Source of the DNA: Nitrospira sp.
GTDB lineage: Bacteria; Nitrospirota; Nitrospiria; Nitrospirales; Nitrospiraceae
Assembly (NCBI GenBank): GCA_005116955.1
Contig: SWDI01000002.1
Location: 226,518-265,086, forward strand
Direction of reading: 5' to 3'
Length of the DNA stretch: 38,569 nt
A program made the translations under genes and the position numbers. This document shows positions 1-35,385 of this stretch, piece after piece; positions within the stretch are counted from its first letter, which is position 1; each line of letters begins with the position of its first letter. Below the pieces are notes generated by a model. The model was not told where the DNA came from and ran no database searches. It saw only the letters and a program-made list of their open reading frames with translations.

Positions 1-55
1 GGCGTATCCTTTGGTTGCTTCGTTGTGTCGCGATCACAAATCAACCAGATACGCC
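1..55. repeat. Compound inverted repeat (hairpin) at window start
   Basis: GGCGTATC (1-8) pairs with GATACGCC (48-55), and TGGTTG (12-17) pairs with CAACCA (42-47). Inside lies a second hairpin, TTGTG (23-27) with CACAA (35-39). The whole stretch can fold into one long imperfect cruciform. It begins exactly at the first base of the window, so it may be the cut end of a larger repeat or mobile element; this cannot be decided here. Confidence 0.45.
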
Positions 56-140
56 GCGTCTTTTCAAACCCTCAAACACCAGATTTGGTTATAACTCATT
101 CACCACACAGCTTACGCAATGGATGCGTTTAACTCTTTGA

Positions 141-565
141 AAGTGGATTCCTGATTCAACCTTCCCCGTCGTAGAGGCCAGCCCACGCATTCTTCACGGA
201 TTCGACCCCAAGCTATCACTCAAAGCTCTTTCGGCTCTTGAACAAATTGGCGTCACGGTCAAACTAAATAACCCCGTGAGTGCTGTCCGTCAGGACGGAG
301 TGCTGGTCGGGAACGAATGGATCTTGTCCGGCAAAGTGATTGAGCGGCAAGCCACAAGCCCTCGCCACTCCCCCACACCCTGGCGGTTCCTTAAGATTCA
401 TACGGTCAGGTCAAAGTCTGAGCAGATCTCGCCATCCCAGATACTCCCCGGATCTTCATGATAAGGGACGCAGCCCATTGTGTCGGCAATAATGGAAAAC
501 CTTTGCCGGGAGTGGCACCTATCGCAGAACAACAGGGACGGTATGTTGCCGGTCTCTTCAACTAA
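141..565 (+). pseudogene. Remnant of type II NADH dehydrogenase (NDH-2)
   Basis: Two overlapping frames each carry pieces of an NDH-2 (NAD(P)/FAD oxidoreductase). From about 150 to 345 the frame encodes VEASPRILHGFD and a stretch around GVTVKLNNPVSAV, which resembles the NADH-binding half of these enzymes. From about 425 to 565 another frame encodes DLAIPDTPRIF, DAAHC and PLPGVAPIAEQQGRYVAGL, matching the FAD-binding 'GDAAH ... G.PLPGVAP.A.QQGRYVA' segment, and then a TAA stop. The frames do not join, so at least one frameshift lies near 345-420. The 5' part is missing, with an in-frame stop at 138-140, and the conserved Gly of GDAAH is Arg. I read this as a dead fragment of a membrane-associated respiratory dehydrogenase. 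Confidence 0.7.
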
Positions 566-6121: not shown

Positions 6122-6559
6122 CTACTTGGCAAACCCGAGTGCCTTCACTGATGCGCGTGCGGCTGTGCGAGCCTTGATAGCAGGATTGAGGAGCACCCCG
6201 GGATCTGCATGGATCCCGATTTCTGCGACCCGCTTACAGTGTCGGATAACGTCATGAAGGGACGCGATACCCTCCTCCCGGCCTGGATGCGACCTGGAGA
6301 GCTGTTTGATAAGCAATTCGGCATACTGCGCTGTCTCAGCACAATGGTGAATGATCGCCTTTGTATCACCCATTCCACCATGGGCAACCATGTCCTCAGC
6401 ATTCAATCGCAGCCCATCCGCCGCCTCACTCAGGCTTTGGCCCTGCTCAACGGCAAACACCGACGTGTGTGCAATAAGTGAAAAAACGATGATGAGGATG
6501 AGCCCAGAGATCATCGATGCGATGCTGGAGTATCCAGTTTGCACGCGTATAGCCGCCAT
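6122..6559 (-). CDS. SmbP-like small metal-binding protein, exported
   Basis: Residues about 14-36 are a hydrophobic export segment ending in FAVEQ. The mature part is helical and rich in Ala and His: AEDMVAHGGMGDTKAIIHH, then HCAETAQYAELLI, and IRHCKRVAEIGIHAD. This resembles SmbP, the small periplasmic metal-binding protein of Nitrosomonas, a four-helix bundle that binds copper and other divalent metals. That match is by pattern, not alignment. The ATG overlaps the stop of the upstream gene (TAATG), so translation is probably coupled. As the last gene behind the first oxidase module it may buffer or deliver copper there. Confidence 0.6.
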   Translation of the reverse strand: MAAIRVQTGYSSIASMISGLILIIVFSLIAHTSVFAVEQGQSLSEAADGLRLNAEDMVAHGGMGDTKAIIHHCAETAQYAELLIKQLSRSHPGREEGIASLHDVIRHCKRVAEIGIHADPGVLLNPAIKARTAARASVKALGFAK

Positions 6560-7065
6560 TAATAGCGCCCTTTGGGGATAATTACGGCAGATGTCAGCTC
6601 GTGATAAAGACGATGAAATGCTTCCGTTGTCAACTCAGGATTCTGCAACCTCGTCAAGGTCGCTTGATCAATCGGATATTCCACGGTGTCGTCATAATTG
6701 GATGACGCAATCGTAATAAACCTGGGAGGAAACAATCGTTCCGGCAGTAAGATGCCCACTCCTAGATTGTATTTTAGCGCCAATCGGATTGCTTCTCTGG
6801 CCTTATCGGCTGGAACTTCTCGCCCCAACCCGATATTCTGCGGTGGTTGTCCCATCCTGGCAAACTGGAAATGCACGTTGGAAAATCCGGCTTGGACAAA
6901 TTCCTGTTTGAGTTCGGCTTTACGAGCTCGATAGTGATAGGCAAGCACCACTTCAACACGGCTCACCGTCGGTGCCGCCGGTTTCTCCCCGAACGCGGAC
7001 AGCACCGTAATCTCACTCAGCAGGACGATGAATAGCAGACCGATCACATGCCACTGTATACGCAT
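6559..7065 (-). CDS. Exported protein of unknown function (168 aa)
   Basis: Residues 1-26 form a signal peptide (MRIQWHVIG, hydrophobic core, SAFGE). The mature part contains SRVEVVLAYHYRARKAELKQEF and a Leu/Arg-rich middle with REAIRLALKYNLGVGIL; no known motif or cysteine pair is visible. It begins two bases after the stop of the cupredoxin-like gene and overlaps the start of the SmbP-like gene by one base, so the three form one translational unit. By context it belongs to the first copper-oxidase module. Confidence 0.7.
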   Translation of the reverse strand: MRIQWHVIGLLFIVLLSEITVLSAFGEKPAAPTVSRVEVVLAYHYRARKAELKQEFVQAGFSNVHFQFARMGQPPQNIGLGREVPADKAREAIRLALKYNLGVGILLPERLFPPRFITIASSNYDDTVEYPIDQATLTRLQNPELTTEAFHRLYHELTSAVIIPKGRY

Positions 7066-7067
7066 CG

Positions 7068-7850
7068 CTATTTTGCCTTAAACGTAAATTCCACCGAACT
7101 GCTTTCTCCAGCCGCCACGGTGAATTCCCGATCCTGTTCCCCGAGAGTCGGATGCCAGGCCTTGATCCGGTAGGTGCCGACCGGGAGGTCTCTGATATCA
7201 AACATCCCCTCGCTCCCCGTCACGGCATAGTACGGGTTATCGACAGCAAGACCGTGTCCCTGCATATAGGGATGCATCCCGCATTGCATGATAACACCTC
7301 GCCGATCCCCGGTAAAACGAACAACATCCTGGGTTCCCCCTTTGGTCAGCGCAGGACGGTGAAACATAATAAAGATATGCTCCCAATCCCGTTCATATAC
7401 CTGAAGATCGTGTGCAACGGAATCCAGATTTTTCACGATGAGAGGATGCTCGTTGCGCATGACCGAGACATACGGCACGAACTGACAGATATTCGCTTCC
7501 AACTTGGTTGCTTCCAATTCGAACGGCTTACCGCTTTTTACGCCCTCGATCGTGACAATCACGTCTTTGAGTCCACCTTGTGGCCCTACCAAGACTTCAC
7601 GAAGCAGACGATAGCCGGATCCATCCGAAAGGGCACCGCAATAGCCCTGATCTGGATAGCGATGGAGTTTGAAGGCAGCCGGGTCAGGCTGATCGCCGGT
7701 GAAGTGCACCATCCCCTTGACTGCACCTCCATTCACGACCGCCATCGGCTCATAAGCCAATGCGAGATCCATCGCTCCCGTACTCACCATGAATATCGTG
7801 AAAGTCAGACCGATGAAACCAGGAACAAGAGTATTGGTGAATCGCCTCAT
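7068..7850 (-). CDS. Exported cupredoxin-like protein with CGMHPYM motif (copy 1)
   Basis: The 260-aa product has a signal peptide (residues 1 to about 33) and an N-terminal beta region starting GGAVKGMVHFTGD. The middle carries VAHDLQVYE, and later MQCGMHPYMQGHG. A His in the first element and the C-x2-H-x2-M cluster in the second match the ligand spacing idea of type 1 copper proteins (His, Cys, His, Met). The last 70 residues (GMFDIRDLPVGTYRIKAWHP) look like a carboxypeptidase-regulatory or transthyretin-like fold. A close paralog lies at 15057-15830, and each copy sits near a giant oxidase, which fits an exported electron partner or copper chaperone. An AGGGG ribosome site precedes the ATG. 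Copper binding is inferred. Confidence 0.72.
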   Translation of the reverse strand: MRRFTNTLVPGFIGLTFTIFMVSTGAMDLALAYEPMAVVNGGAVKGMVHFTGDQPDPAAFKLHRYPDQGYCGALSDGSGYRLLREVLVGPQGGLKDVIVTIEGVKSGKPFELEATKLEANICQFVPYVSVMRNEHPLIVKNLDSVAHDLQVYERDWEHIFIMFHRPALTKGGTQDVVRFTGDRRGVIMQCGMHPYMQGHGLAVDNPYYAVTGSEGMFDIRDLPVGTYRIKAWHPTLGEQDREFTVAAGESSSVEFTFKAK

Positions 7851-7973: not shown

Positions 7974-10900
7974 TTACTTTTTGCCCTTCAGCGAGGTCGG
8001 TGAGGCCTTGGCCTTACCAGACGGCTGCTCCGCAGTCCTTGTCGGCGGAACCTGCGGCATCAACGGTTTGATCCGTTGATCGTCAACCGGGAGGACCTTG
8101 AACAGGCCCCACTGTCCAGCGTTGGCAAAGGCCGGGCGCTGATTCTTCCACAGATAGTCGCCCGCGATCTTGTTCGGACCACCAGCCCCTCCTGTGAGAT
8201 AGGCATTGATGATTTCCGATCCGCCGAACTCCATAGTGCTGACCTGGTCGGCGCCCTGCATATATGGCTCGTGTGGCCATTCATGTCCATCAATCGTGAA
8301 TAGTTGCACCTGTTCACTGAATGCGCCCAACACGTGTACAGCCACGGGATCTCCAACGTGCGCCTGGAGCAGCGGGGTCGAAGGCGTATCCCCGGCTTTC
8401 ACGCAGCTGAAAATCTCGGACACATCACAACCCTTTTCCATTCGCCAGGCCGTCGGCTCCGAGCGGTAGTTGACCGCCGTGATGCCGGCGACTTGCTGAA
8501 TGTAGGGCATGAAGCTCACGCCTACGATGTTGTCCTCGTCCTGGAACATCAACGAGAAATCGCGATAGTTCTTCCGGCTTTCATTTCCAGAAAGTGTCCG
8601 GTCTACAAGGACATCGGCGCGCCAGCTGCTCTTCATTGTAATATCGTCACCCGACACTGGGTCGCGATACCGCGATCCCTTCGGACCAACGATGATAGAA
8701 CCAAACAGGCCATTTCGTGGATTTTCCACGACGTTCCCCCAATCCTGAATCAACGCAGCAAGCTCCCCATATTCAGGGTGAGCATAGTAGGTGTAGGTCT
8801 TGCTCTCGCCGGGACCAACCGTTTGATCACCGGGATTGTTACCCACATTGGCACCGAACGAATCCTTCGGGTTAAACGCCATCATGTCGACGTGGAACCC
8901 GGCTCGCTCCTTGGCCATCTCGTTTTTCAGATTGATTTTCACACAATCACCGACGTTGACGTGCAGAGTCAGTGGGCTCGGCTTGAGTTCTCCGGCCTTG
9001 ACCCGTCCACGATCTCCGTCGAGCACATACATCTTGCCCTGTTCATTGCCGAAAACCATCTTCCGCTCAAGATCGACTTCCATCACACCCGGTGCGCCCT
9101 CATGGTACCGGATCTGTTGATCGATCGCTGAGACATTAAAGGTCTTCACTGGCGACTCAGCCGGACACACCGACGGAGCAGACTTTTGAATTTGCTCACG
9201 ACTGGGTAATGGCTTCAAATCACCCTGCAATTCGTCAAACACACGGAAAATACCCCAACTGCCTTCTGCGAAATGCGACGCACGACCGCTATAGTAGAGA
9301 TAATCTCCGGCTTGTTTCTGTGGTCCCCCGGCGGCTGGAATAGCTGGATCATACCGCTCACCAATCACCAAATGGACCGTACTGCGCGGCATAGCATCTT
9401 TCCCGTACCGTTCCATCGGGAACCAGTGTCCGGTCACGTGCCAGGTATGCACTTCATTGGCCGATCCCACCAGCGCACGCACCATGATCGGATCGCCAAG
9501 ATAGGCGCGTAACAATGGCGTGCCTGGATCACCATGGATACCGGAAACGAACAGTTTGGATGGATCAGGATTGTTGACAAGCCGGACGCTCAACGGCTCC
9601 ACACGCATGCTGTAGCCGCTACCCGTGGTGGCTTCGCCTCCGTTCAGGAACCACATCGCAGACTTGTTGATACGTTCAGGGAACTGATGCGACGGCGGCC
9701 CATCCACCGTCACCGCATTCATCTTCGCCTGAGGATTGTCTGTTGTGATCAGCTCCGCGGATCTGGCATTGCTGTCCATGATATGCATCATGACTTCACG
9801 GAAACTGCCGCGGATGTGGGCCGAAACCGGCTCCAAGGTATGGATGTCCGCGATGGGGCCGCTCCGGATTTCTTTGCCGGTTACCGGATCATGATAGGTT
9901 GAACGTGGCGGCTCGGTGATAAACGCCGAGAACAGCCCATGGCCCCACGTATCCGTTCCGAACACATGGTCGTGCCAATAGATTGTGCCCAAATCGGCAT
10001 CGACATACCAGCGCTCACGAATGAATTCTACGCTCGCGATATCGCTCTTCTTATGACCGTACTTCAACGGCGCATCAAACGTGATGGTCTTGCCATTAAT
10101 TGCCTTGATCCGTACGATTTCAAAGAACTTCGGATCATCCATGCCCACGCCGAGCTCTGTGTTCACATGGAACTTAGACGTATCCGCGACAGTGATACTC
10201 CGAGCCCCGGCTTTCGTATCTGCCGTCAGCACCGTATTGCCCGGGAGCGGCATCCCCTTGTCCGGCTGTGGATCTTTCAGCATCGTGAAGGCCCGCAACG
10301 ACATGTCATAAGAGAACCCGATCGTCGGACCATCGGACGCACTCGTATCGAATTGGAAGAAGTGCGGGTGGAGATTGATCTTGTTCGACCACCCGGTCCG
10401 CGCATCATCTGGAATTTCATTCTTGAAGATGACGTCCACGCAATCATACACGTTTCCACGAATAACAAGCGGTAGTTGCTTTTTAGGATCCTTACGAACT
10501 TCCGCCTCTTCCTCGTGCAACACATAGATCATGCCGATCGGATCAACGACCGCCGCTGTTTTGGCCGTGGCCGGCTTGAGCGTGATCGGCAGCGTGATTG
10601 AATGGATTGTGAAGAACTTCCTCGGCGAATTCTCTGGGCACAAGCTCCACGGACCCTGCGCTCCTGGTTTCGGAGGCTCAGTATCCCTTGTCCCATCTTC
10701 CCGAACGCGGAATGGTTCCAACCACGGCGCACCGCCATGATTTGGCGCAAAGGGTGGCCGTTTCCCAAGATGCGGGCGCAGCCAGGGGAACGCCAACTTA
10801 CCCGTTTGTGGATCAAACGTGATCGGCAGGCGCTTCAGAGGAGCAGGCGACACATAGTCAGCCCACTTGTGTGGGGTCTCCGGTTCATTGAGTGCTAATG

Positions 10901-12719
10901 CCCCTTCCCACTTCCAATTCACCACCGTTGGATCGTTTGCCTTGGCTTGCTGAACTTGATCCTCCGTCTTACCTGGCAATCCCTGCGGAGGCAGCATGTA
11001 CTCCACCCAATCCTTGATGGAGACCTTCACTGGATTGGCTTTCCAATCCGTCTTATCCTTCGTGATTTCCCACTTCTTGCCGCCGTACCAATCAACCGTC
11101 GTACCGACCAGCTTATCGGAACTGATAGCAGCTTTAATCTTGCCCTTCCGATCCGGTAATTCCACAAGTGGTTTCATCACATCGGTCTGGAATCCTGGTT
11201 GCTGCAGCGTGTTATACACCCGCCAGAAGCCCCACATACCCGTCACGTAGTGCTGCGGGATATGGCAATGGAACACAAATTCTCCAGCCAGCGCTTGCAA
11301 CCCACCCGATCCGCCTTCGATCACTTCATCATAGATCTCGGACGGTCCGATTGACTGCACATCCAGTCGGTCGGAGGTATCATTGATCATTGGGAACTTG
11401 ACCGGACCATTCTTCGACAGCGTCGGATCCAGCTTGCTGGTTCCGGGCTGTCTGGCCCAACGAATCGACCCACCATGCAAGTGGTGCGAATGGACGATTT
11501 CTGAGCCACCGATCATGCGGAAGGTCGCAGGATCGCCCAAATAAGAACGTGGGATCGTGGTCGCCGGGTCACCGAACGTATAGGACCCATAGCCTTGCGA
11601 TTCATCAGCAAAACCAACGAGATGCTCTTGCATCTCCAACCGCGTCCCATGCGGCTCACTACGATAGTTGAGCAACCGAGCGGCCGGTCGATAGGTATCC
11701 GTATGGGCATCGCGCTGCGGGAGCATATCGCCCTTGCGATTCAAAAGCCGGAATGTCTCGTCACCGGCCTCATGATAGAAAATCACGAATTCCCGGAAGT
11801 CCGAGCCCTTTTCCTTATCGATAATGGCTTCCCAACCGCTCTTCATCTCCTCGCCTGTGAAGGGGCTCAAGAAACGAGATCCCCGTGGCTCCACCACGAG
11901 CGAACCCAGCAACCCGAGAGAATACTGATCTCTCGAGGCATGGCTGTGGAACGCATGTCCACCCTCTTGGGTGTCTGGGCCGATATACCACTCAAACTCA
12001 CCGGTCTTTCCCGTTGCCACCAAGGCCTCCGGATTATTGGCCGTTGCCGGTTTTCCGCTGTTGGTCACCAACAACTGTGACCCGTTGATGATGATGTTCG
12101 TGGGTTCGCCTTCGATCTGGTTGCGGAGTGTAATCCGCAAGCAATCGCCCTGGTTGGCACGAATGACCAGCGGCTGAATCAAGTCACCCTGCAGACCGTT
12201 GGAGATCGCGCCTTCAGCGAACGAGGGATCTTCGCTCTCACGCGCGGTGCGGTTTTTGACTTCTTCCGCACGCACCCCTGCGACATCCTCGGTGAGGGCA
12301 TACATGAAACCTGGATAGAAGTCTCCGAACCGATTCACCGTGATCTCGACGTTCATCGCGGTCACGTCGTATGAACGAACCGGTGCCGTCGCCGGGCATC
12401 GGCCACCCTGTGTCACCTTCACCTTGTCCATATCGTCGGCGACGAGCAACACCCCCTGCTGCATGGCGTGAGAACCGGCGCCTTGGAATGGTCCTTTTGA
12501 GTGGACCTGCCGCTCAATCTGCTCGACGGCCTTTGACATCTTGTCCATCAGCGCTGGGCCGGCCTGCGCACTGACTGGTGTCACAAGACCCGCAGTCGAA
12601 CCTTGAGCCACATGCGCATCGTGCGACATGATCGCACTAGCCGGCAGCGCCCCAGCTAATATTAGGCTGGCTGCGAACCCCAAGATTCCCGGCCCCATCC
12701 ATTTCGTTGATTCACTCAT
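7974..12719 (-). CDS. Giant multicopper oxidase, MofA/OmpB type (copy 1, 1581 aa)
   Basis: This exported oxidase is predicted to have six cupredoxin domains as three two-domain repeats. Each repeat starts near a GLLGSLVVEPRGS / GLFSAFITEPPRS / GLFGSIIVGPKGS strand. Copper ligands are visible as HSHHLHGG (about residue 409), HCHIPQHYVTGM (about 482, with the type 1 Cys and axial Met), LHPHFF (about 782) and WHDHVFG (about 913). The cysteine-containing sites thus precede the other two, a permuted order. Relatives include Leptothrix MofA (Mn) and Geobacter OmpB (Fe oxide), so metal oxidation or extracellular electron transfer is likely; the substrate cannot be read. The true start is the ATG at 12719 behind AGGAGGGTG. 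A GTG at 12770 belongs to an inserted mini-element. A signal peptide spans about residues 1-29. Confidence 0.93.
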   Translation of the reverse strand: MSESTKWMGPGILGFAASLILAGALPASAIMSHDAHVAQGSTAGLVTPVSAQAGPALMDKMSKAVEQIERQVHSKGPFQGAGSHAMQQGVLLVADDMDKVKVTQGGRCPATAPVRSYDVTAMNVEITVNRFGDFYPGFMYALTEDVAGVRAEEVKNRTARESEDPSFAEGAISNGLQGDLIQPLVIRANQGDCLRITLRNQIEGEPTNIIINGSQLLVTNSGKPATANNPEALVATGKTGEFEWYIGPDTQEGGHAFHSHASRDQYSLGLLGSLVVEPRGSRFLSPFTGEEMKSGWEAIIDKEKGSDFREFVIFYHEAGDETFRLLNRKGDMLPQRDAHTDTYRPAARLLNYRSEPHGTRLEMQEHLVGFADESQGYGSYTFGDPATTIPRSYLGDPATFRMIGGSEIVHSHHLHGGSIRWARQPGTSKLDPTLSKNGPVKFPMINDTSDRLDVQSIGPSEIYDEVIEGGSGGLQALAGEFVFHCHIPQHYVTGMWGFWRVYNTLQQPGFQTDVMKPLVELPDRKGKIKAAISSDKLVGTTVDWYGGKKWEITKDKTDWKANPVKVSIKDWVEYMLPPQGLPGKTEDQVQQAKANDPTVVNWKWEGALALNEPETPHKWADYVSPAPLKRLPITFDPQTGKLAFPWLRPHLGKRPPFAPNHGGAPWLEPFRVREDGTRDTEPPKPGAQGPWSLCPENSPRKFFTIHSITLPITLKPATAKTAAVVDPIGMIYVLHEEEAEVRKDPKKQLPLVIRGNVYDCVDVIFKNEIPDDARTGWSNKINLHPHFFQFDTSASDGPTIGFSYDMSLRAFTMLKDPQPDKGMPLPGNTVLTADTKAGARSITVADTSKFHVNTELGVGMDDPKFFEIVRIKAINGKTITFDAPLKYGHKKSDIASVEFIRERWYVDADLGTIYWHDHVFGTDTWGHGLFSAFITEPPRSTYHDPVTGKEIRSGPIADIHTLEPVSAHIRGSFREVMMHIMDSNARSAELITTDNPQAKMNAVTVDGPPSHQFPERINKSAMWFLNGGEATTGSGYSMRVEPLSVRLVNNPDPSKLFVSGIHGDPGTPLLRAYLGDPIMVRALVGSANEVHTWHVTGHWFPMERYGKDAMPRSTVHLVIGERYDPAIPAAGGPQKQAGDYLYYSGRASHFAEGSWGIFRVFDELQGDLKPLPSREQIQKSAPSVCPAESPVKTFNVSAIDQQIRYHEGAPGVMEVDLERKMVFGNEQGKMYVLDGDRGRVKAGELKPSPLTLHVNVGDCVKINLKNEMAKERAGFHVDMMAFNPKDSFGANVGNNPGDQTVGPGESKTYTYYAHPEYGELAALIQDWGNVVENPRNGLFGSIIVGPKGSRYRDPVSGDDITMKSSWRADVLVDRTLSGNESRKNYRDFSLMFQDEDNIVGVSFMPYIQQVAGITAVNYRSEPTAWRMEKGCDVSEIFSCVKAGDTPSTPLLQAHVGDPVAVHVLGAFSEQVQLFTIDGHEWPHEPYMQGADQVSTMEFGGSEIINAYLTGGAGGPNKIAGDYLWKNQRPAFANAGQWGLFKVLPVDDQRIKPLMPQVPPTRTAEQPSGKAKASPTSLKGKK

Positions 12720-12757
12720 ACGTTCACCCTCCTCCAGAAAATATTTCTCCGCACTAG

Positions 12758-12788
12758 TGGACTGTAACACTTAAATAGTTAGTATAAT
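12758..12788 (+). promoter_or_regulatory. Promoter inside the mini-element (reads rightward)
   Basis: TGGACT (12758-12763) and a perfect TATAAT (12783-12788) are 19 bases apart, a long but workable spacing. GGAGGG and an ATG follow at 12798-12810. It is present unchanged in the second copy at 38476-38506. It points away from the oxidase gene. Confidence 0.45.
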
Positions 12789-13347: not shown

Positions 13348-13484
13348 GACCGGGTGCAAACGCCACCCTGCATCCCGAAACCACACCCTAAATTTCGGCG
13401 TTGTCTTGCCAATTTGCTGTATTCCTCTCGACGCAGGCCTCTCCGGCCATTGACTCTCCGCCAATGTTCCCGGTACAGGAAGCA

Positions 13485-14360
13485 ATGAGAGCAATTCCGC
13501 GTATCTTCGGTATCTTTCTCGTCCTGGTTGTCCTGGGACTCTCCCTGCACCCAGCGACTGGAACAGCAAACGGAGAATCGCCATATGACGGCGTCGCCAC
13601 ATTCGCCTCGCGCTCGCCCATGATGACCATCCCTGAAGGCCACTTTTTCATGGGAACTGCCAGGACGACCCAGACTTCTTTCAGCCTTGAGTTTCCGTAC
13701 GATGACACCGAACAACCACAGCGCCGTGTGTGGCTTGACCGGTTCGAAATCGATCGCGATGAAGTCAGCCTTGGTGAGTTCCTACTCTGGTTACAGCAGC
13801 AGCGCCGTCCCATTTCTAGCGACTTGCGCAAACTGATCGACCATATGATGACCGTCCATGCCATGCGGCCTGAAGCGCTTGCTCATTGGCCCGCGCTCTA
13901 CGTCACCTGGGCGGAGGCCTTAGACTTTTGTCGCGCACAGGGCAAACACCTCCCGACCGAGGCTGAGTGGGAAAAAGCCGCCCGAGGAGAGAAGGGGAAT
14001 CTCTTTCCCTGGGGGCACCGACCTCCTGCGCCGGGGTTGGCCATGTTCGGGCAGTACCATATGCACGAAATTCCGATCGTGGCCTCGGTTGAGAGTGGTG
14101 AGCAGGGACGAAGTCCCTATGGCCTGCATCACATGGCTGGGAATGCCGCCGAATGGGTCGACGATTGGTTTGGGATCGATTACTATGCGACCATGCCAGA
14201 GCGCAATCCGAGGGGAACCAACCCAGGTCGCTATAAGGTGGTGCGAGGCGGTTCCTGGAAAAGTGCTCCGGTGTTGCTACGAACAGCCACGAGAAGCGGA
14301 GCCGCACCCAAACAGCGGGCAGCTACGATTGGGTTTCGCTGTGCAAAATCAATCCGATAG
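13485..14360 (+). CDS. SUMF1 / formylglycine-enzyme-fold protein, exported
   Basis: The 291-aa product has a signal peptide (residues 1 to about 27) and one SUMF1 (FGE-sulfatase) domain. Visible features are MMTIPEGHFFMG, FEIDRDEVSLGEF, LPTEAEWEKAARG, MAGNAAEWVDDWF, VRGGSWKS and the closing IGFRCAK. The paired cysteines that bind copper and form the active site in true formylglycine-generating enzymes are absent from the segment after GGSW. It is therefore unlikely to make formylglycine. NirV-type relatives beside copper nitrite reductases share the fold, which fits the copper-gene neighbourhood. ATG 13485 was chosen because it opens the signal peptide and has AGGA just upstream; 13401 and 13464 are longer options. 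Confidence 0.8.
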   Translation: MRAIPRIFGIFLVLVVLGLSLHPATGTANGESPYDGVATFASRSPMMTIPEGHFFMGTARTTQTSFSLEFPYDDTEQPQRRVWLDRFEIDRDEVSLGEFLLWLQQQRRPISSDLRKLIDHMMTVHAMRPEALAHWPALYVTWAEALDFCRAQGKHLPTEAEWEKAARGEKGNLFPWGHRPPAPGLAMFGQYHMHEIPIVASVESGEQGRSPYGLHHMAGNAAEWVDDWFGIDYYATMPERNPRGTNPGRYKVVRGGSWKSAPVLLRTATRSGAAPKQRAATIGFRCAKSIR

Positions 14361-14379
14361 TGGAGGAGAGAGCTACCTT

Positions 14380-15024
14380 ATGAAGACGCTGATGATCCTG
14401 GGATACGTTGTGGTTACCTTGGCGGCGATGAGTCTCGCTCCAAACGCCCCGTCCTCTCTCGGCGCCGTGACCGAACCCAACGATGGAACCGGTTGGAAAC
14501 TCTATACGAACGCCCGCTTTGGTTTCTCCGTCCGCTATCCCGATGACTGGCGACTTGGTAATCCGCTGCCGGACGGCGTCGGCGTGACGCTGTCCCCCAC
14601 GGTCGAGCATAGTCTCGTCGCCTTATCGGGTCATATGAATATCGTCGGTGGGACCAGTCAAGATGGGCGGCAGACGCTCGACGAGTTTGCCACAGCTCAT
14701 CGCCGCATTATCACGGAACTCTACGGAAAGAAGCACATCCCCATCACGTGGAGACCGGATCAGGAGAGGCTGTTGGCCGGATTTCCTGGAAAACGACTCA
14801 CCTTTACCTATGTCGACAGCACCGCGGGCGAGGTGATTGAACACCACGTCATGTCCCTCGGTCGGAACGAGGGACGAGGCATCCGAGTCAAAGTGCCGCT
14901 TTCTGGGGAACACCAACTCATGCCACTGATTGAGCGGATGCTCGCGACTTACCAACCTGGGCGAGATCAGAACGCGGTCAGCCCTCTCATGCCGAAACCT
15001 GAACTACCGGTTGCGCCACGATGA
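14380..15024 (+). CDS. Exported PsbP-like / DUF1795-like protein (214 aa)
   Basis: A signal peptide (about residues 1-29) precedes WKLYTNARFGFSVRYPDDWR, the opening typical of PsbP-like single-domain proteins. Later come VTLSPTVEHSLVALSG, KRLTFTYVDS and EHHVMSLGRNEGRGIRVKVP, consistent with the alternating strands of that fold. GGAGGAGAG lies nine bases before the ATG, a very good ribosome site; the longer frame from 14089 overlaps the SUMF1 gene and is not needed. It follows the SUMF1 gene by 19 bases and is probably cotranscribed with it. Its role is unknown. Confidence 0.75.
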   Translation: MKTLMILGYVVVTLAAMSLAPNAPSSLGAVTEPNDGTGWKLYTNARFGFSVRYPDDWRLGNPLPDGVGVTLSPTVEHSLVALSGHMNIVGGTSQDGRQTLDEFATAHRRIITELYGKKHIPITWRPDQERLLAGFPGKRLTFTYVDSTAGEVIEHHVMSLGRNEGRGIRVKVPLSGEHQLMPLIERMLATYQPGRDQNAVSPLMPKPELPVAPR

Positions 15025-15056: not shown

Positions 15057-15830
15057 TCACTTGGCCTCAAACGACAGATCGAGTGACACCGTCTCATTGG
15101 GCTTTACAGTAATGTCCCGCTCTTGGCTTCCGAGGATCGGATGCCAGGCCTTGAGGTGATACGTCCCGGCCGGGAGATCGCCGATGGCAAACGAACCAGT
15201 GGGATCCGTGACCGCATAATACGGATTGTCGATCGCATAGCCCCAGTTCTGCATGTAGGGATGCATGCCGCACTGCATGGTAAACACTTTTCGCCCTTTG
15301 ACCAGCTGTACGACATCGGTAGTCCCACTCACATGCAGCGCAGGTCGATGGAGAACAATATCGACGCCGGCTTGATCGTACGCATAGCCTTGAATGTCGT
15401 GGGACACCGGATCACGATTAAACACCGTAATGCGACGCTTGTCGCTGACCACGGTGACGAAGGGCAGAAACTGGCACAGACTCGCTTCCACTTCCGCATC
15501 GGTGAAGGTGAAGGGCTTACCTTTCTGGATGCCTTCCACGACGAGGACCACATCCTTAAGCCCCCCCTCCGGCCCAAGATTAACTTCTTTCAGGAGCCGA
15601 TGCCCTTTACCATCCGATACCATGCCGCAATACTCGCGGTCGTAATAGCGGCGCAGCTCAAATTCTTTGGGTTCCGGAACAGTCCCGGTAAACGTCACCT
15701 TCCCCCGCACCGTCGCTCCATCCACCACCGGTGCCGACTCATAGGCCCCGGCATCGGTTCGTAGTCCGATTGTCAGGATCACCGACACACAGCCCGCCGC
15801 CCATAATGCGCCCATCATAGCCGTTCTCAT
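15057..15830 (-). CDS. Exported cupredoxin-like protein with CGMHPYM motif (copy 2)
   Basis: This is the paralog of the protein at 7068-7850, similar along its length. It has a signal peptide (1 to about 29), a first strand region GATVRGKVTFTG, VSHDIQGYAYD with the candidate His ligand, MQCGMHPYMQNWG with Cys, His and Met, and the C-terminal GSFAIGDLPAGTYHLKAWHP. The motif and the flanking DNPYYAVT are the best conserved parts, as expected if they form the metal site. The ATG at 15830 has GGAGGAAAT directly upstream; a longer frame to 15881 is unlikely. It starts 19 bases after the DUF4412-like gene and completes the second oxidase module. Confidence 0.75.
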   Translation of the reverse strand: MRTAMMGALWAAGCVSVILTIGLRTDAGAYESAPVVDGATVRGKVTFTGTVPEPKEFELRRYYDREYCGMVSDGKGHRLLKEVNLGPEGGLKDVVLVVEGIQKGKPFTFTDAEVEASLCQFLPFVTVVSDKRRITVFNRDPVSHDIQGYAYDQAGVDIVLHRPALHVSGTTDVVQLVKGRKVFTMQCGMHPYMQNWGYAIDNPYYAVTDPTGSFAIGDLPAGTYHLKAWHPILGSQERDITVKPNETVSLDLSFEAK

Positions 15831-15849: not shown

Positions 15850-16446
15850 CTAAGGTTGCGTATCGGCGGATGGATTCGCATTATCCAGCCGTCGTGGAAG
15901 TTCGAAGAGGAACGGAGATTGCTCCGTGAAGATCACCCGACGAAACTCCTCCGACCACTTTCCCTGCTTACTCACCGTCTTCAGCGGAAACCGCTCGGCC
16001 TTGGTTACCCATCTATAATACTGCCGAGTTTCACCCTGTTCAGCAACCGTCACTTCGAACAGTTCCGTGGGATGACCATTCAGCGTCTCGTCACCCACCA
16101 ACTCGCGTGAGACCTCTCCGCCCATTTTCTCAGTCATCATCAACAAATGGTCGGCCGCGATCGGGATCTCAAGATACTGCCGACGCTCCGAGAGGATGAG
16201 CCACGAATGCTGCTTGTCCATCCGAACGATCATGATACTGGCGCCTCGCTGGGGTTGTGCGTATTCGAACCGCCAACGATCGCCCTTAGCGTTGACATGG
16301 GCCGTGATGACAGACGCGCCGTTTTTTACGACCCGCTCAGCCGAAAAATCAAGCGCTGTAGCTGGCTCTGGTACACTCCCTGTGGCAATCGACACGAGCC
16401 AGATCAAGAACAGACGAATTGAGAGAGGGAGCCCTCGCGGTTCCAT
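15850..16446 (-). CDS. Exported DUF4412-like protein (198 aa)
   Basis: A signal peptide (about residues 8-31) is followed by FSAERVVKNGASVITAHVNAKGDRWRFE, then MIVRMDKQHSWLI, YLEIPIAAD and a C-terminal YYRWVTKAERFPLKTVSK. This resembles DUF4412 and related LolA-like beta proteins that follow lipoprotein or copper-protein genes. No metal motif is visible. It lies between the terminator of oxidase 2 and the second cupredoxin-like gene, on the same strand, and has no counterpart in the first module. Confidence 0.65.
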   Translation of the reverse strand: MEPRGLPLSIRLFLIWLVSIATGSVPEPATALDFSAERVVKNGASVITAHVNAKGDRWRFEYAQPQRGASIMIVRMDKQHSWLILSERRQYLEIPIAADHLLMMTEKMGGEVSRELVGDETLNGHPTELFEVTVAEQGETRQYYRWVTKAERFPLKTVSKQGKWSEEFRRVIFTEQSPFLFELPRRLDNANPSADTQP

Positions 16447-16564: not shown

Positions 16565-19500
16565 CTACTTGGCCTTCGCCTTCGTAGACACCGGGAGGGA
16601 TTTTGCTGAGGACTTACCCTCGGCTTGTTGTGTGGCCGGGGTTTTACCACTCAGCGGAAGGATGGCACGGCTATCACGATCCAGGACCTTCAGCATTCCC
16701 CAGTGCCCGGCATCGAGATAGCCAGGACGCTGATTGAGCCAGAGATAGTCACCGGGAATCCCGTTCGGTCCGCCGGCTCCACCGTGCAACCAGGCATTGA
16801 TGACTTCGGACCCACCGAATTCCATGGTGCTCACGAGGTCTGCTCCGCTGATGTACGGTTCGTGTTTCCATTCATGACCCGACACGCTGAAGAGTTGCAC
16901 CTGTTCGCTGAAGGCGCCCAGGACATGAATGACCACCGAATCTCCGACGTGCGCGGCGATCGTCGGCGTCACTGGCTGGTCACCCGTCTTCACACAGGCA
17001 AACACTTCGCTGTAGGCACAGCCCTTCTCGGTGCGGTAATCGGTCGGCTCCGACCGATAGTTCACCGCTGTCACGCCAGCCACCTTTTGGATATACGGCA
17101 TGAAGCTGGTGCCGGTTTGGTTATCTTCGTCCTGGAACAGGAGCGCAAACGAGCGGTAGTTCTGCCGTTTGTCGTTTCCTGATACAGTCCGATCGACAAT
17201 CACATCCGCCCTCCACGAGCTCTTCTGGGCCACATCCTCACCGGTCACCGGATCGCGATACTGCGATCCCTTCGGACCGATGATGACGGCACCAAAGAGT
17301 CCGTTCCTCGGATTCTCGATGACGTTCCCCCAATCCTGAATCAGGGCTGCGTTCTCCCCGAACTCCGGATGGGCGTAGAACGTATAGGTCTTACTCTGGC
17401 CCGGCGCGATCGTCTGATCGCCAGGATTATTGCCAGCGTTGATGCCCATGGACTCTTTCGGATCAAACGCCAAGTTATCCACGTGGAACCCGGCTCGCTC
17501 TTTTGCCATTTCATTTTTGAGATTCACCTTGATGCAATCACCGACGTTGACATGCAATGTCAACGGGCTCGGCTCAAGGTTGCCCGACGTGACTTTGGTC
17601 TTTTCGCCTTCGAGCACATACATCTTCCCAGTCTCGTTGCTCAGCACCATCTTACGCTCCAGGTCGACTTCCATCGTGCCAGGCGTGCCCTTGTTGTAGC
17701 GAATTACCTTGTCGATGGCCGAGACATTGAAGTTCTTCATTGGTGCGTCCGCTGGACAGACCGACTTGGCTGACTGCGGAATCTCGCTGCGCCCCGGAAG
17801 CGGCTTCAGCGTCGTCTCTGGCTTGTCGAGGACTCGGAAAATTCCCCAGCTGCCTTCGACGAAATGCGACGCCCGACCACTATAGTACAGGTAGTCCCCT
17901 GCCATCTGTTGGGGTCCGCCAGCGGCCGGAATGGCCGCATCGTACCGTTCTCCGATCACCACGTGCAGCGAGCTCCGCGGGATGGAGTTCTTGCTATACC
18001 GCTCCATCGGGAACCAGTGACCGCTGATGTGCCAGGAATGCACTTCGTTGGCTGACGTTTCCAACAGTCTGACCACCACTGGATCACCCAGATAGGCCCG
18101 CAACATCAGCGTATCCGGATCTCCATGAATCCGGCTGCTGAACAACTGCGACGGATCAGGGTTGTTGGCTAAGCGGACAGACAAGGGCTCTATCCGCATG
18201 TTGTACCCGCCACCGGTCGTGGCCTCGCCGCCGTTCAAGAACTTCATCGGCGAGAGGTTCAATCTGGCTGGATAGACAGCCGAAGGCGTCCCATCCACAG
18301 ATATCGCATTGACCCTCGCCTGTGGATTGTCGGCCGTAATCAATTCTGCCGCCCGAGGGTTGGAATCCATGACATGTGTCACGATCTCACGGAAAGACCC
18401 CCGGATATGGGCGGACACCGGTTCGGTCGTGTGAATGTCCGCGACGGGGCCGCTCCTGATTTCCTTACCCGTGACTGGATCATGATAGGTCGATCGCGGC
18501 GGCTCCGTGATGAATGAGGCATACTGCCCGTGCCCCCACGAGTCAAGTCCATACACATGGTCATGCCAGAACGTGGTGCCGAAGTCGGCGTCCACATACC
18601 AGCGCTCGCGGATCCACTCGACCGAGGCAATCTCACCCTTCTTATGGGCGTGCTGCAACGGCCGCTCAAAGGTAATCGTATTGCCGTCGATCTTGCTGAT
18701 ACGGGCTGACTCGAATCCATTCACTTCATCCATCCCCACGCCCAGCTCTGTCTTGACGTGGAACTTTGATGCATCCTTGACCTTGATGCTGGTCGCCCCC
18801 TTGGCGGCATCCGCCTCGATCGTGGTGTTCATCGGGACTGGCATGCCCTTGCCTGGGTGCTCATTCTTCAAGATCGTGAATGGCCGGAGCGACATCTCAT
18901 ACGAGAACCCGATGATCGGACCATCGGAGGCTTGCGTATCGAACTGGAACATGTGCGGGTGCAGGTTCGTCTTGCTGGAGAACCCTTGCCGTGCATCATC
19001 TTTCAGCTCGCTCTTATAGACGACGTCAACGCAGTCCTGCACGTTTCCGCGAATGACGAGCGGAAACTGCTTCGCTCGATTCTTTCGGACCTCAGCTTCC
19101 TCTTCATGCAACACATAGAGTAAGCCGTCCGGATCGACGATCGCCGGCGTCTTGGCCGTCGCCCCCTTCAAGGTAATCGGCAAGGTGATCGCATGGATAT
19201 TGAATTTCTTGAGCGGCGAGCCTTCCGGGCAGAGACTCCAGGGTCCGTTCTCGCCCGGTTTGGAAGGCTCGGTTGAATTGCTGCCATCGTCACGCCGGTG
19301 GATCGGCTCCAACCAGGGCGCTCCGCTATGGCTCGGCGAGAATGGTACTCGTCGGCCCAGATGCGGCCGTAGCCACGGCCACGACAGTTTTCCACTTCGT
19401 GGATCGAAAAGAATATCCTGGCGCTTTCCAGGTGTTGTCGATTTATAGTTCACCCATTCGTACGAGGTTTCAGGTTCCGTGAGAGCCTTTGTACCATCCC

Positions 19501-21337
19501 AGGCCCAATCATTGACCGTCGAGTCATAGGCCAGGGTCTGCTCCTTTTCCGTGTTCTTGTGCCCTGGCTTGCCCTGCGGCGGCACCTGCATCTCAACCCA
19601 ATCCTTGATGGAGACCTTGGCTGGATCGGCTTTCCAATCCGTCTGGTCCTTGGTGATTTCGAACTTCTTGCCACCGTACCAATCGACCATCGTCCCCACG
19701 AGCTTATCGCTTGCGACACCGGTCCTCATACGGCCGGCGCGATCCGGCAACTCAACCAGGGGTTTCATCACATCGGTCTGGAATCCTGGCGCTTGCAGGG
19801 TGTTGTACACCCGCCAGAATCCCCACATGCCCGTCACATAGTGCTGCGGGATATGACAGTGGAACACGAACTCGCCGGCCAATGCCTGCAATCCTCCTGA
19901 ACCGCCCTCGATCACTTGATCGTAGATCTCTGTCGGCCCAATGGACTGCACGTCGAGACGATCTGAGGTATCGCTGATGAGCGGAAACTTCACCGGACCA
20001 TTACTGGAAGCCGCGAAGTCCAGGTTGCTGTTCCCCGGCTGGCGTGCCCAACGAATGGACCCACCATGGAGGTGATGCGAATGCACGATCTCTGATCCAC
20101 CCGCCATCCGGAACTTGGTCGGATCGCCGAGATAGGAGCGGGGGATGGTCGTGGCTGGATCGCCGAACGTATAGGACCCATAGGCCATAGACTCATCACC
20201 GTAGAACCCCATGTGGGCCTGGAGCTCAATGCGGGTGCCGTGCGGCTCGCTGCGATAGTTCAGCAACCGTGCCCCAGGACGATAGGAATCGGTATGCGGG
20301 TCACGCTGCGGCAGCATCTCACTTTTCTTGTTCAAAATCCGGAAGGCCTCATCGCCTGCCTCATGATAAAAGATCGCGAATTCGCGGAAGTCTGCCCCTT
20401 TCGGATCTTCAATCATGGCTTCCCAGCCGCTCGCCATCGGCTTTCCATCGAACGGACTGAGATAGCGTGAGCCACGTGGCTCGACGACCAACATGCCGAT
20501 CAAGCCTTGATTGAACTGTTCGCGTGAGGCATGCGACCGGAGAAACCGTGCGCCCTCTTGTGTGTCTGGCTTGATGTACCATTCAAAATTTTGCTGCTTC
20601 CCCACCGCCACGGTCGTATCCGGATTCGACGGGGTGGCCGGCTTGCCGGTGGATGAAACCACCATCGACGACCCGTTGATGACGAGGTTGGTCGGCTCAT
20701 CTGCGATCTGGTTATGGAGCGTCAGCTTAAGGCAATCGCCCTGATTCGCTCGGATAACCAGCGGTTGGATCACATCACCCTGCAGACCGTTCGACAGGGC
20801 ACCGGGATCGTTTTCTTTTTCTCGCGCTTCCTTGTTCGCGGTCTCCTCGGCTCGTGCTTTATCCAGATTTTCGTTCAGGACGTACATGTACCCAGGGAAA
20901 TAATCGAGGAACCGGCTCAGCGTGATTTCGATACTGATCGCCGAGACATGATATTCCTTAACAGGCGCATTCGCTGGACACCGCTGACCGCCAGTGACCG
21001 ATACTTTGTCCGGGTCATCCACCACGAGCAACACGCCCTGTTGCATCATGTGGCTGTTGGCGCCCGTGCTATACCCTCCCTTCTTTCCGATGAACTCCTG
21101 CTGCCGCTTGATTTCTTCCATCATGCGGTCGTGAAGGACTGCCCCGCCTTCACGATAGATCACCTTTTTCGCAGTCGCTTGCTCCGCGCTGCTGTGGTGA
21201 CCATGCTGCTCAGCGGCCAACGCCATCGGTGTGATCGCGAGACCGCTCGTCAAGACTAGGCTGAGGAGTTGCCGCATAGCGCCAGCTCCTTTTAGCCTCC
21301 CACTTGATTTGGGAATGGTGGACTGCTTAGACCTCAT
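16565..21337 (-). CDS. Giant multicopper oxidase, MofA/OmpB type (copy 2, 1590 aa)
   Basis: This is a paralog of the oxidase at 7974 with the same three-repeat, six-domain plan and long identical blocks. Copper sites are HSHHLHGG (about residue 417), HCHIPQHYVTGM (about 490), LHPHMF (about 790) and WHDHVYG (about 922). The first repeat reads FLRSHAS where copy 1 has FHSHAS, so one extra His pair is lost. The fourth and sixth domains lack the Cys of a type 1 site in both copies. A signal peptide lies at about 21-42. Two starts have good ribosome sites: ATG 21337 (AGGGGAGG) and ATG 21277 (AAAGGAG). The second gives a compact signal peptide. Substrate unknown; Mn(II), Fe(II) or Cu are the candidates from relatives. 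Confidence 0.93.
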   Translation of the reverse strand: MRSKQSTIPKSSGRLKGAGAMRQLLSLVLTSGLAITPMALAAEQHGHHSSAEQATAKKVIYREGGAVLHDRMMEEIKRQQEFIGKKGGYSTGANSHMMQQGVLLVVDDPDKVSVTGGQRCPANAPVKEYHVSAISIEITLSRFLDYFPGYMYVLNENLDKARAEETANKEAREKENDPGALSNGLQGDVIQPLVIRANQGDCLKLTLHNQIADEPTNLVINGSSMVVSSTGKPATPSNPDTTVAVGKQQNFEWYIKPDTQEGARFLRSHASREQFNQGLIGMLVVEPRGSRYLSPFDGKPMASGWEAMIEDPKGADFREFAIFYHEAGDEAFRILNKKSEMLPQRDPHTDSYRPGARLLNYRSEPHGTRIELQAHMGFYGDESMAYGSYTFGDPATTIPRSYLGDPTKFRMAGGSEIVHSHHLHGGSIRWARQPGNSNLDFAASSNGPVKFPLISDTSDRLDVQSIGPTEIYDQVIEGGSGGLQALAGEFVFHCHIPQHYVTGMWGFWRVYNTLQAPGFQTDVMKPLVELPDRAGRMRTGVASDKLVGTMVDWYGGKKFEITKDQTDWKADPAKVSIKDWVEMQVPPQGKPGHKNTEKEQTLAYDSTVNDWAWDGTKALTEPETSYEWVNYKSTTPGKRQDILFDPRSGKLSWPWLRPHLGRRVPFSPSHSGAPWLEPIHRRDDGSNSTEPSKPGENGPWSLCPEGSPLKKFNIHAITLPITLKGATAKTPAIVDPDGLLYVLHEEEAEVRKNRAKQFPLVIRGNVQDCVDVVYKSELKDDARQGFSSKTNLHPHMFQFDTQASDGPIIGFSYEMSLRPFTILKNEHPGKGMPVPMNTTIEADAAKGATSIKVKDASKFHVKTELGVGMDEVNGFESARISKIDGNTITFERPLQHAHKKGEIASVEWIRERWYVDADFGTTFWHDHVYGLDSWGHGQYASFITEPPRSTYHDPVTGKEIRSGPVADIHTTEPVSAHIRGSFREIVTHVMDSNPRAAELITADNPQARVNAISVDGTPSAVYPARLNLSPMKFLNGGEATTGGGYNMRIEPLSVRLANNPDPSQLFSSRIHGDPDTLMLRAYLGDPVVVRLLETSANEVHSWHISGHWFPMERYSKNSIPRSSLHVVIGERYDAAIPAAGGPQQMAGDYLYYSGRASHFVEGSWGIFRVLDKPETTLKPLPGRSEIPQSAKSVCPADAPMKNFNVSAIDKVIRYNKGTPGTMEVDLERKMVLSNETGKMYVLEGEKTKVTSGNLEPSPLTLHVNVGDCIKVNLKNEMAKERAGFHVDNLAFDPKESMGINAGNNPGDQTIAPGQSKTYTFYAHPEFGENAALIQDWGNVIENPRNGLFGAVIIGPKGSQYRDPVTGEDVAQKSSWRADVIVDRTVSGNDKRQNYRSFALLFQDEDNQTGTSFMPYIQKVAGVTAVNYRSEPTDYRTEKGCAYSEVFACVKTGDQPVTPTIAAHVGDSVVIHVLGAFSEQVQLFSVSGHEWKHEPYISGADLVSTMEFGGSEVINAWLHGGAGGPNGIPGDYLWLNQRPGYLDAGHWGMLKVLDRDSRAILPLSGKTPATQQAEGKSSAKSLPVSTKAKAK

Positions 21338-34565: not shown

Positions 34566-34581
34566 TTCAATGTGTCCATCG
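34566..34581 (+). repeat. Right target-site duplication of the ISNCY element
   Basis: Exact copy of the 16 bases at 33126-33141. Joining the two sides shows the old junction: the GlmL operon promoter and the toxin-antitoxin promoter were divergent, with their -35 boxes about 39 bases apart. Confidence 0.85.
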
Positions 34582-34604
34582 ACGCACTCCCACAAAGTAT
34601 GTAT

Positions 34605-34633
34605 TTGACAGCATATTACTCATGTACCATACT
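34605..34633 (+). promoter_or_regulatory. Promoter of the toxin-antitoxin operon
   Basis: A perfect TTGACA (34605-34610) is followed after 17 bases by CATACT (34628-34633). Transcription would start near 34640, at the GTG that fits the family start. An ATG at 34622 lies inside the promoter and cannot be used from this promoter. Confidence 0.7.
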
Positions 34634-35005
34634 GACAAAGTGAAGAAGTGGGACGTTGAGATAGGCGACGAATTTGAGTCGGAGTTCGATGCACTGCCCG
34701 AAGATGTGCAGGACGAAATCCTGGCACATTCGCGCCTGCTCCAGGAATATGGTCCCCAGCTAGGACGCCCCCGCGTGGATACACTTAACGGGTCGCGCCA
34801 CGCAAATATGAAAGAACTACGCTTTAACGCCGCAGATGGCGTCTGGCGGGTAGCCTTCGCGTTTGATACCCGCCGGCACGCGATCCTGCTTGTCGCCGGG
34901 GATAAATCAGGAGGGAGCGAAAAGCGCTTCTACAATGAACTGATCCGCAAGGCTGACACGCGCTTTGACGCCCATCTCGGACGTTTGAGAAAAGAAAGGA
35001 AGTAG
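34622..35005 (+). CDS. HigB/RelE-type toxin (Gp49 family)
   Basis: This is a RelE-superfamily toxin, likely a ribosome-dependent mRNA endonuclease. The family pattern is clear: WDVEIGDEFESEFDALPEDV, LLQEYGPQLGRP, LNGSRHANMKELR, DGVWRVAFAFD and KRFYNELIRKAD. The open frame begins at ATG 34622, but the promoter evidence and the family N-terminus favour the GTG at 34640, giving 121 aa. No ribosome site precedes either start, so the mRNA may be leaderless. The antitoxin gene starts two bases after its stop. Confidence 0.85.
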   Translation: MYHTDKVKKWDVEIGDEFESEFDALPEDVQDEILAHSRLLQEYGPQLGRPRVDTLNGSRHANMKELRFNAADGVWRVAFAFDTRRHAILLVAGDKSGGSEKRFYNELIRKADTRFDAHLGRLRKERK

Positions 35006-35007
35006 TT

Positions 35008-35385
35008 ATGGCTACCAATGTACGCGACACCATAAAGGGCTTGAGTCCAGTCCGGCGTAAGAAGATCGAGGCACGCGCCGCCGCATTGATTGCTGAAGAA
35101 ATGTCCCTGAGGAATCTAAGGCAGGCATTGACTCTGACACAGGAACGTATGGCCGAAACCCTTGGCATTGGCCAGGACGGCGTGTCACGTCTCGAAAAAC
35201 GCAGCGATTTGCTGTTATCTACTCTGCGGACCTACATCGAAGCCATGGGTGGTCAGCTCTCACTGATCGCCAAATTCCCCGACCGTAAGCCTGTCACGCT
35301 CACCGGGCTGGCCACCATGGAGACGGCTCCCCATCCGCCCACACGCCCCCGCCGCCGCAAACGCACACGGGACCATGCTGCTTGA
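35008..35385 (+). CDS. HigA/XRE-type antitoxin
   Basis: A Cro/C1 helix-turn-helix lies at about residues 35-80 (LRQALTLTQERMAETLGIGQDGVSRLEKR). It is followed by LLLSTLRTYIEAMGGQLSLIAKF, typical of HigA antitoxins. It should neutralise the toxin and repress the shared promoter. The last 30 residues are Pro/Arg-rich and longer than usual; the tail overlaps a small open frame at 35375. AAAGGAAG before the ATG is a good ribosome site. Confidence 0.88.
   Translation: MATNVRDTIKGLSPVRRKKIEARAAALIAEEMSLRNLRQALTLTQERMAETLGIGQDGVSRLEKRSDLLLSTLRTYIEAMGGQLSLIAKFPDRKPVTLTGLATMETAPHPPTRPRRRKRTRDHAA

Follow-up and report, generated by a model that had tools for sequence, protein, structure and literature searches.

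The His-Cys-His-Met ligand set of type 1 copper sites normally serves electron transfer, and amicyanin acts as the electron acceptor of methylamine dehydrogenase. Its copper ligands are His53, Cys92, His95, and Met98 (PMC12723479). In the Mnx system of Bacillus, the copper-binding proteins MnxE and MnxF (about 12 kDa) are partners of the oxidase MnxG, which requires them for activity and overexpression, and they are described as resembling no characterised protein (PMC5622069). The 2013 genome paper on Nitrospina gracilis reports a multicopper protein which resembles the manganese oxidase of Bacillus SG-1, is conserved in Ca. Nitrospira defluvii, and is located in the NXR gene cluster beside two cupredoxin-like copper proteins; the role suggested there for the multicopper protein is one against reactive oxygen (PMC3578206). 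According to a sand-filter study, the Nitrospira MAGs of the inoculum encode MnxG, and manganese oxidation by Nitrospira was proposed without proof (PMC12070406). Here we describe two gene copies of a Nitrospira genome whose products we take, with moderate confidence, to be exported type 1 copper proteins in which a cupredoxin domain is nested within a second domain and which act as periplasmic electron carriers working with a nearby MnxG-like oxidase.

The window, i.e. the whole stretch of 38,569 nucleotides that was analysed, is part of contig 2 of its source genome (G000; 3.65 Mb, 99.84% complete) and contains both copies (Table 1). Upon translation, the frame of copy 1 is free of internal stops; a longer open reading frame extends to 15881, and the start at 15830 is preferred because GGAGG is located four bases ahead of this ATG. 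Both proteins are probably exported. A third family member, 33% identical and with the motif CDQHEFM, is encoded on another contig of the same genome. The closest matches of copy 1 in named genomes are MAGs labelled Nitrospira or Nitrospirae with at most 96% identity, the top one being from groundwater.

Table 1 Features of the two copper-protein genes and their neighbours (positions in the window)
Feature	Position	Strand	Basis and remarks
Copy 1 (P0001)	15057..15830	-	257 aa, cupredoxin domain apparently nested in transthyretin-like domain; translation, AlphaFold model, fold comparison
Copy 2	7068..7850	-	260 aa, architecture as copy 1; CGMHPYM 7263-7283, His147 codon 7410-7412
Putative Sec signal peptide, copy 1 residues ~1-29	15744..15830	-	Hydrophobic N-terminus, by eye
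N-terminal half of split transthyretin/carboxypeptidase-regulatory-like domain, copy 1 residues ~36-103	15522..15725	-	Structural matches over model residues ~6..229 with 80-91 aligned residues, and mixed splice test; limits approximate
Cupredoxin domain, copy 1 residues ~110-200	15231..15503	-	Fold matches of model residues 82-172 to plastocyanin and amicyanin
His144, putative first copper ligand, copy 1	15399..15401	-	Aligned to amicyanin His53; His in 121/121 rows
CGMHPYM with putative copper ligands Cys187, His190, and Met193, copy 1	15252..15272	-	Aligned to amicyanin Cys92, His95, and Met98; 119/121 rows
C-terminal half of transthyretin-like domain including AWHP, copy 1 residues 201-257	15060..15230	-	Pfam PF13620, residues 204-253
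198-aa protein encoded between copy 1 and its oxidase	15850..16446	-	Weak DUF4412 similarity (E 0.08); relatives in 40/78 loci
168-aa protein downstream of copy 2	6559..7065	-	No Pfam match; relatives in 45/78 loci
145-aa protein, weakly SMBP-like (small metal-binding protein)	6122..6559	-	E 3.1e-4, under Pfam cut-off; relatives in 52/78 loci
MnxG-like multicopper oxidase, 1,590 aa, upstream of copy 1 with one gene between	16565..21337	-	Pfam Cu-oxidase_2 and _3; MnxG 9bxa E 1.5e-98
MnxG-like multicopper oxidase, 1,598 aa, adjacent upstream of copy 2	7974..12770	-	Solved MnxG, E 4.5e-90

A preliminary description of this DNA, made from the sequence, had pointed to a CGMHPYM cluster, an upstream His in a VxHD context, and a GxYxxKAWHP stretch as shared by both copies. 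The translations bear this out: CGMHPYM is present in both, together with VSHD or VAHD and with GTYHLKAWHP or GTYRIKAWHP, at an overall identity of 50% (121 of 240 residues). The pattern C-x2-H-x2-M occurs in three of the 175 stop-to-stop frames of at least 80 aa in the window, i.e. in the two copies and in an unrelated frame (6152-6478, plus strand), and arises in 56 of 20,000 shuffles of the copy 1 protein. This rarity makes a chance origin unlikely, and the stronger evidence is conservation; frame counts, shuffles, and conservation in frames that had not been selected by the motif together rule out a chance motif. Loci that were found with a pattern containing C..H..M cannot be used as a test of motif conservation. 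Among 67 family frames from the window and from loci of other genomes not selected in this way (gene repeats included), 66 have C-x2-H-x2-M and the only other one is truncated by a contig end, so that a loss in close homologues, which had been named as a possible refutation, was looked for and not seen. More distant frames, likewise not selected by the motif, gave a less uniform picture: it is kept in 32 of 36, two have C-x3-H-x2-M with a loop longer by one residue, and two have lost it.

In a non-redundant set of 121 full-length rows (those of 215 with at least 180 aligned residues and below 90% identity, a mixture of motif-selected and unselected rows), all four putative ligands are retained in 119, two rows with a loop longer by one residue being counted as kept if present. 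In the two exceptions Cys is replaced by Ser and Met by Ile or Leu, both residues being lost together. Such losses would fit a cupredoxin-like fold that holds another metal or none and has a structural or sensory role, as would a Bacillus cupredoxin-like domain of which, going by the entry titles, there are structures with either zinc or copper (4hcg, 4hcf); as 119 of the 121 rows, which come from both Nitrospirota and Proteobacteria, have all four ligands, however, this explanation is very improbable. Paralogues without the Cys and Met of the motif are located in L174 (463-1272) and L187 (1498-2280), the one in L174 directly preceding an intact copy. Two further cysteines of copy 1 are conserved, Cys119 in 121 and Cys68 in 117 of the 121 rows, and could possibly form a disulfide.

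A ligand set of Cys, His, and Met together with the upstream His agrees with a profile alignment (hhalign) in which His144, Cys187, His190, and Met193 coincide with His53, Cys92, His95, and Met98 of amicyanin, albeit for one pair and with a probability of 3% (E 0.014). The predicted placement was judged from the strand layout of the models and from the ends of the structural alignment; the latter agree, model residue 172 corresponding to amicyanin residue 105 with the Met located seven residues before the end in both. The spacing is, as had been stated, neither that of plastocyanin nor that of azurin, but it is not unusual, being that of amicyanin (PMC12723479). The PROSITE pattern PS00196 (PMC517927) does not fit when compared by eye, as the Pro or Gly required before the His is absent in CGMH.

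A predicted structure had been proposed as a check, and the AlphaFold models of copy 1 (pLDDT 90.6, pTM 0.89, alignment of 30 sequences) and copy 2 (pLDDT 90.2, pTM 0.89, 23 sequences) both contain a cupredoxin and a transthyretin-like domain. The middle part of copy 1, residues 82-172 of the model or 110-200 of the protein, matches plastocyanin 2plt (Z 10.5, rmsd 2.5, 86 aligned residues), amicyanin 1sf3 (Z 9.7, rmsd 2.1, 82 aligned), and the Bacillus cupredoxin-like domain 4hcg (Z 10.7, rmsd 2.1, 85 aligned). Taking both models together, the plastocyanin and amicyanin rows have Z scores of 9.3-10.7 at an rmsd of 2.0-3.0 over 82-93 aligned residues, in keeping with a Greek-key beta-sandwich. 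In Foldseek, copy 1 gave its best matches with a copper nitrite reductase of Thermus (E 1.8e-5) and with amicyanin (E 5.5e-5), several of the amicyanin rows being at an rmsd of about 9.

A second class of matches spans the model from near its first to its last residue, yet only 80-91 residues are aligned, which fits a domain built from both ends of the protein; as these comparisons give the first and last aligned residue only, we infer that the middle part is skipped. In this class, copy 1 aligns with 81 of the 86 residues of chain Y of 6hif (Z 10.7, rmsd 2.3) and over 91 residues with teneurin 8fia (Z 11.4, rmsd 2.4). Copy 2 aligns over 79 residues both with carboxypeptidase N 2nsm (Z 11.0, rmsd 2.0, model residues 10..228) and with carboxypeptidase D 3mn8 (Z 10.4, rmsd 2.0). 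A splice test with PF13620 gave a mixed result. The C-terminal part of copy 1 scored 37.8 bits alone (profile positions 30-80) and 42.3 bits when joined to two short N-terminal strands (positions 3-80), compared with 37.4 bits after joining to a control segment (positions 28-80); joined to the whole N-terminal part it scored 37.7 bits (positions 28-80), i.e. without gain. With CarbopepD_reg_2, the C-terminal part alone scored 23.6 bits and joining to the short strands gave 30.4, compared with 24.8 for the control and 24.9 for the whole N-terminal part; here the control, too, reached position 3. The joined halves of copy 2 scored 40.2 bits with PF13620 (positions 10-81) versus 32.2 bits for the whole protein, a comparison that has no C-terminal part alone as control. 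The claim is carried by the models and the fold matches, according to which the cupredoxin domain is apparently inserted into a split transthyretin/carboxypeptidase-regulatory-like domain. The transthyretin-like part recognised in the preliminary description is indeed present, but it is half of a split domain rather than only a tail, because the first strands are apparently N-terminal in the models; a tail simply appended behind the cupredoxin is disfavoured by the fold matches. Computation gives good support to a cupredoxin that retains all type 1 ligands and is nested within a transthyretin-like domain.

Scans of Pfam and NCBIfam found no model, for cupredoxins or otherwise, that covers the copper part of the window proteins. 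Both copies resemble the carboxypeptidase regulatory-like domain PF13620, which is, however, apparently interrupted in them by the whole cupredoxin domain; against the gathering score of 32.3 bits, copy 1 passes with 34.6 and copy 2 lies just below with 32.2. A sequence search of the PDB with copy 1 gave no match. A profile search listed 17 PDB sequences, nearly all of which match the transthyretin-like part, together with DOA1 at E 0.63 and, at E 0.84, 5fc9, the purple cupredoxin of Nitrosopumilus. PHROGs contained no match for the copper protein, and a viral origin is unsupported. With amicyanin, the copies share the order and spacing of the four ligands, the C-x2-H-x2-M loop, and the cupredoxin fold across about 82 residues. 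They differ from it in that they are nested in a second domain and carry the conserved Cys68 and Cys119, and neither matches the amicyanin model TIGR02657 (cut-off 110.2 bits) at E<=1; with this model, P0002, a relative encoded on a plasmid, reaches 15.9 bits. Among the open-access papers that were searched, none combines a carboxypeptidase regulatory-like domain with a cupredoxin or an inserted cupredoxin with a transthyretin-like domain, and the excerpt of PMC13374858 does not mention cupredoxins. The proposal of a new family holds insofar as the copper part has no Pfam or NCBIfam model; its members are common, however, and cupredoxin-like proteins were published in 2013 (PMC3578206). As far as the models go, folds and a ligand loop that are already known are combined here in a nested arrangement.

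The best functional clue, the MnxG-like oxidase gene located near each copy, was missing from the preliminary description. The two oxidases of the window are 68% identical to each other and score 117.9 and 140.1 bits with the MnxG model NF041487, far below its cut-off of 3100 bits, and are therefore called MnxG-like and not certified as MnxG. Within their first domain, the oxidase beside copy 2 has the motif FHSHAS and that near copy 1 FLRSHAS, which lacks one His. Among 73 oxidase frames of more than 1,450 aa (gene repeats included), the position is Arg in 27 and His in 15, and the SHAS string is absent in 31; the difference between Arg and His is possibly a change at a copper site.

As evidence for a partnership we rely on adjacency rather than on co-occurrence in genomes, because shared descent alone could yield the latter. 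In 13 genomes, 28 of 37 oxidase genes are followed on the same strand by a family member within 2.5 kb and nine are not; two rows of one gene in G048 were counted as one, and 12 weak rows, which belong to three different large genes and have E values no better than 1.6e-9, were dropped. Random placement gave a mean of 0.054 paired oxidases and a maximum of two in 2,000 trials, the genes being placed evenly on 4 Mb as a simplification. Seen from the copper protein, 38 of 73 family members of these genomes (75 rows minus two short fragments) have an oxidase within 2.5 kb upstream and 35 do not. In the 78 loci found with the copper protein, an oxidase is located within 2.6 kb upstream of 83 of 104 family frames, while 20 frames lack one and one is too near the contig start; the 104 include some fragments and an artefact in L124 (11987-16783), where an apparent fusion of multicopper oxidase and cupredoxin has its join in a masked run read as X. 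A screen of the close genomes, from which short fragments had been dropped, found pairing for at least 56 of the 93 oxidase rows, and of 20 stretches downstream of oxidases that appeared unpaired in this screen, five contain a family member (L055, L064, L066, L067, L071) and 15, three of them shorter than 2 kb, do not. Gene order thus makes a working partnership of the copper protein and the MnxG-like oxidase likely, though not universal.

Relatives of the other neighbouring genes in the 78 loci were scored as present by BLAST, with paralogues counted. Two genes on the plus strand at 13401-15024, one of the FGE-sulfatase (formylglycine-generating-enzyme-like) type, are convergent to copy 1 and have relatives in 42 and 39 of the 78 loci. 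Elsewhere in the window, tRNA-Ser (gct) is located at 2098-2190, and a transposase-like gene followed by a RelE/HigA-type toxin-antitoxin-like pair was recognised by eye from translations at 33221-35385. In another locus (L043, 5124-6284), a family member is flanked by genes that resemble, by eye, those of a zinc/manganese ABC transporter (binding protein, ATPase, and permease).

The recurrent pairing with the oxidase gene would also be expected if the protein were a copper donor or assembly subunit which loads or stabilises the giant oxidase, in function a counterpart of the MnxE and MnxF introduced above, and moves no electrons during turnover; the weakly SMBP-like gene downstream of copy 2 points in the same direction. 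The likeness to MnxE and MnxF, drawn from their description, lies in copper binding and in the oxidase partner, whereas copy 1 with its 257 aa is set against proteins of some 12 kDa; no chain named MnxE or MnxF was among the PDB matches listed for the copper protein. A multicopper oxidase of Nitrosopumilus (9cck) offers another comparison, its C-terminal cupredoxin domain matching copy 1 (Z 10.6, rmsd 2.0, 83 aligned), but there the cupredoxin is fused to the oxidase, whereas in the Nitrospira window the two are separate genes. A role as copper donor is rather unlikely, given a ligand set conserved in nearly all rows that normally serves electron transfer, and given that some relatives have SCO, cbb3, or cytochrome c genes nearby, while the annotated genes shown around them include no such oxidase.

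These relatives emerged from the distribution of the family. It is present in 57 of 59 close genomes (the source genome included), as is the oxidase, and the two exceptions, G041 and G053 (90% and 71% complete), lack both. Among 245 Nitrospirota genomes, 123 contain a match to the family; 88 of these, all in the class of the window, also have strong oxidase matches, and the remaining 35, which belong to other classes, are absent from the oxidase matches. Relatives were moreover found in 50 plasmid records (33 from Sinorhizobium, nine from Caballeronia, four from Rhizobium, and four others), and these together with the breadth within Nitrospirota rule out a family confined to Nitrospira. In the 25 plasmid rows listed, identity is 28.5-30.0%, and the annotation reads "carboxypeptidase regulatory-like domain-containing protein" in eight, hypothetical in two, and is without a gene in 15. 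Three proteobacterial neighbourhoods were examined: in two of them SCO and cbb3 oxidase genes are close by, and in the third the relative has a cytochrome c gene on either side. The MnxG-like oxidase is therefore not the only partner of the family, and such contexts would suit a redox carrier with varying partners.

A carrier need not be tied to the oxidase, however, and the protein might instead serve generally in the periplasm, e.g. between nitrite oxidoreductase and a terminal oxidase, and be located near the multicopper oxidase only through a shared ancestral nitrite-oxidation cluster. For the NXR clusters of Kuenenia, Nitrospina, and Nitrospira, a carrier role of two cupredoxin-like proteins was indeed proposed (PMC3578206), and a family member is located 30.8-33.8 kb from a TorD-like gene in 10 of 13 genomes and 43-59 kb from it in the other three. 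However, the window copies are on contig C2 and the TorD-like gene is on C3, and the pairing with the multicopper oxidase recurs away from this gene in several genomes (e.g. at three loci in G022), so that a general carrier of this kind appears improbable. The distance to the TorD-like gene also suggests that some of the NXR-cluster proteins may themselves be members of the nested family; the likeness, again by description, consists in copper binding and in clustering with an MnxG-like multicopper oxidase in Nitrospina and Nitrospira (PMC3578206). Since that paper placed cupredoxin-like proteins with such an oxidase in 2013, the pairing of copper protein and oxidase is not wholly new.

We therefore return to the carrier that works with the nearby oxidase. 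The fold, the aligned and conserved ligands, and the recurrent gene pairing were computed directly, whereas export, binding of copper, transfer of electrons, oxidase contact, the direction in which electrons flow, and the oxidase substrate are inferred in the following scheme. In copy 1, the amicyanin-type loop with Cys187, His190, and Met193 would bind type 1 copper together with His144, and the split transthyretin-like domain would probably provide a scaffold or docking surface. In the periplasm, the copper protein would partner the MnxG-like multicopper oxidase and most likely shuttle electrons one at a time between this enzyme and the respiratory chain, i.e. cytochromes c. Manganese(II) is the leading candidate for the oxidase substrate.

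The nested architecture may explain why a widespread copper protein carries a generic name, since what Pfam detects is the C-terminal half of the outer domain, whereas the inserted cupredoxin is missed. For Ca. Manganitrophaceae it was argued that manganese lithotrophy based on multicopper oxidases would require cytochrome c or another periplasmic carrier, and not oxygen directly, to receive the electrons, and Cyc2 and PCC_1 were favoured over multicopper oxidases (PMC9040806). An oxidase that passes electrons straight to oxygen saves no energy, and a conserved copper carrier encoded nearby would make an energy-saving route testable. In a bolder extension, to which we give little credence, the MnxG-like oxidase and the nested copper protein of Nitrospira and its relatives would form a two-part manganese(II) oxidase whose electrons reach cytochrome c by way of the type 1 copper carrier, and not only oxygen; if true, it would let nitrifiers save energy from manganese. 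The two nested proteins close to MnxG-like oxidases offer a concrete handle on the question of whether nitrifying bacteria oxidise manganese.
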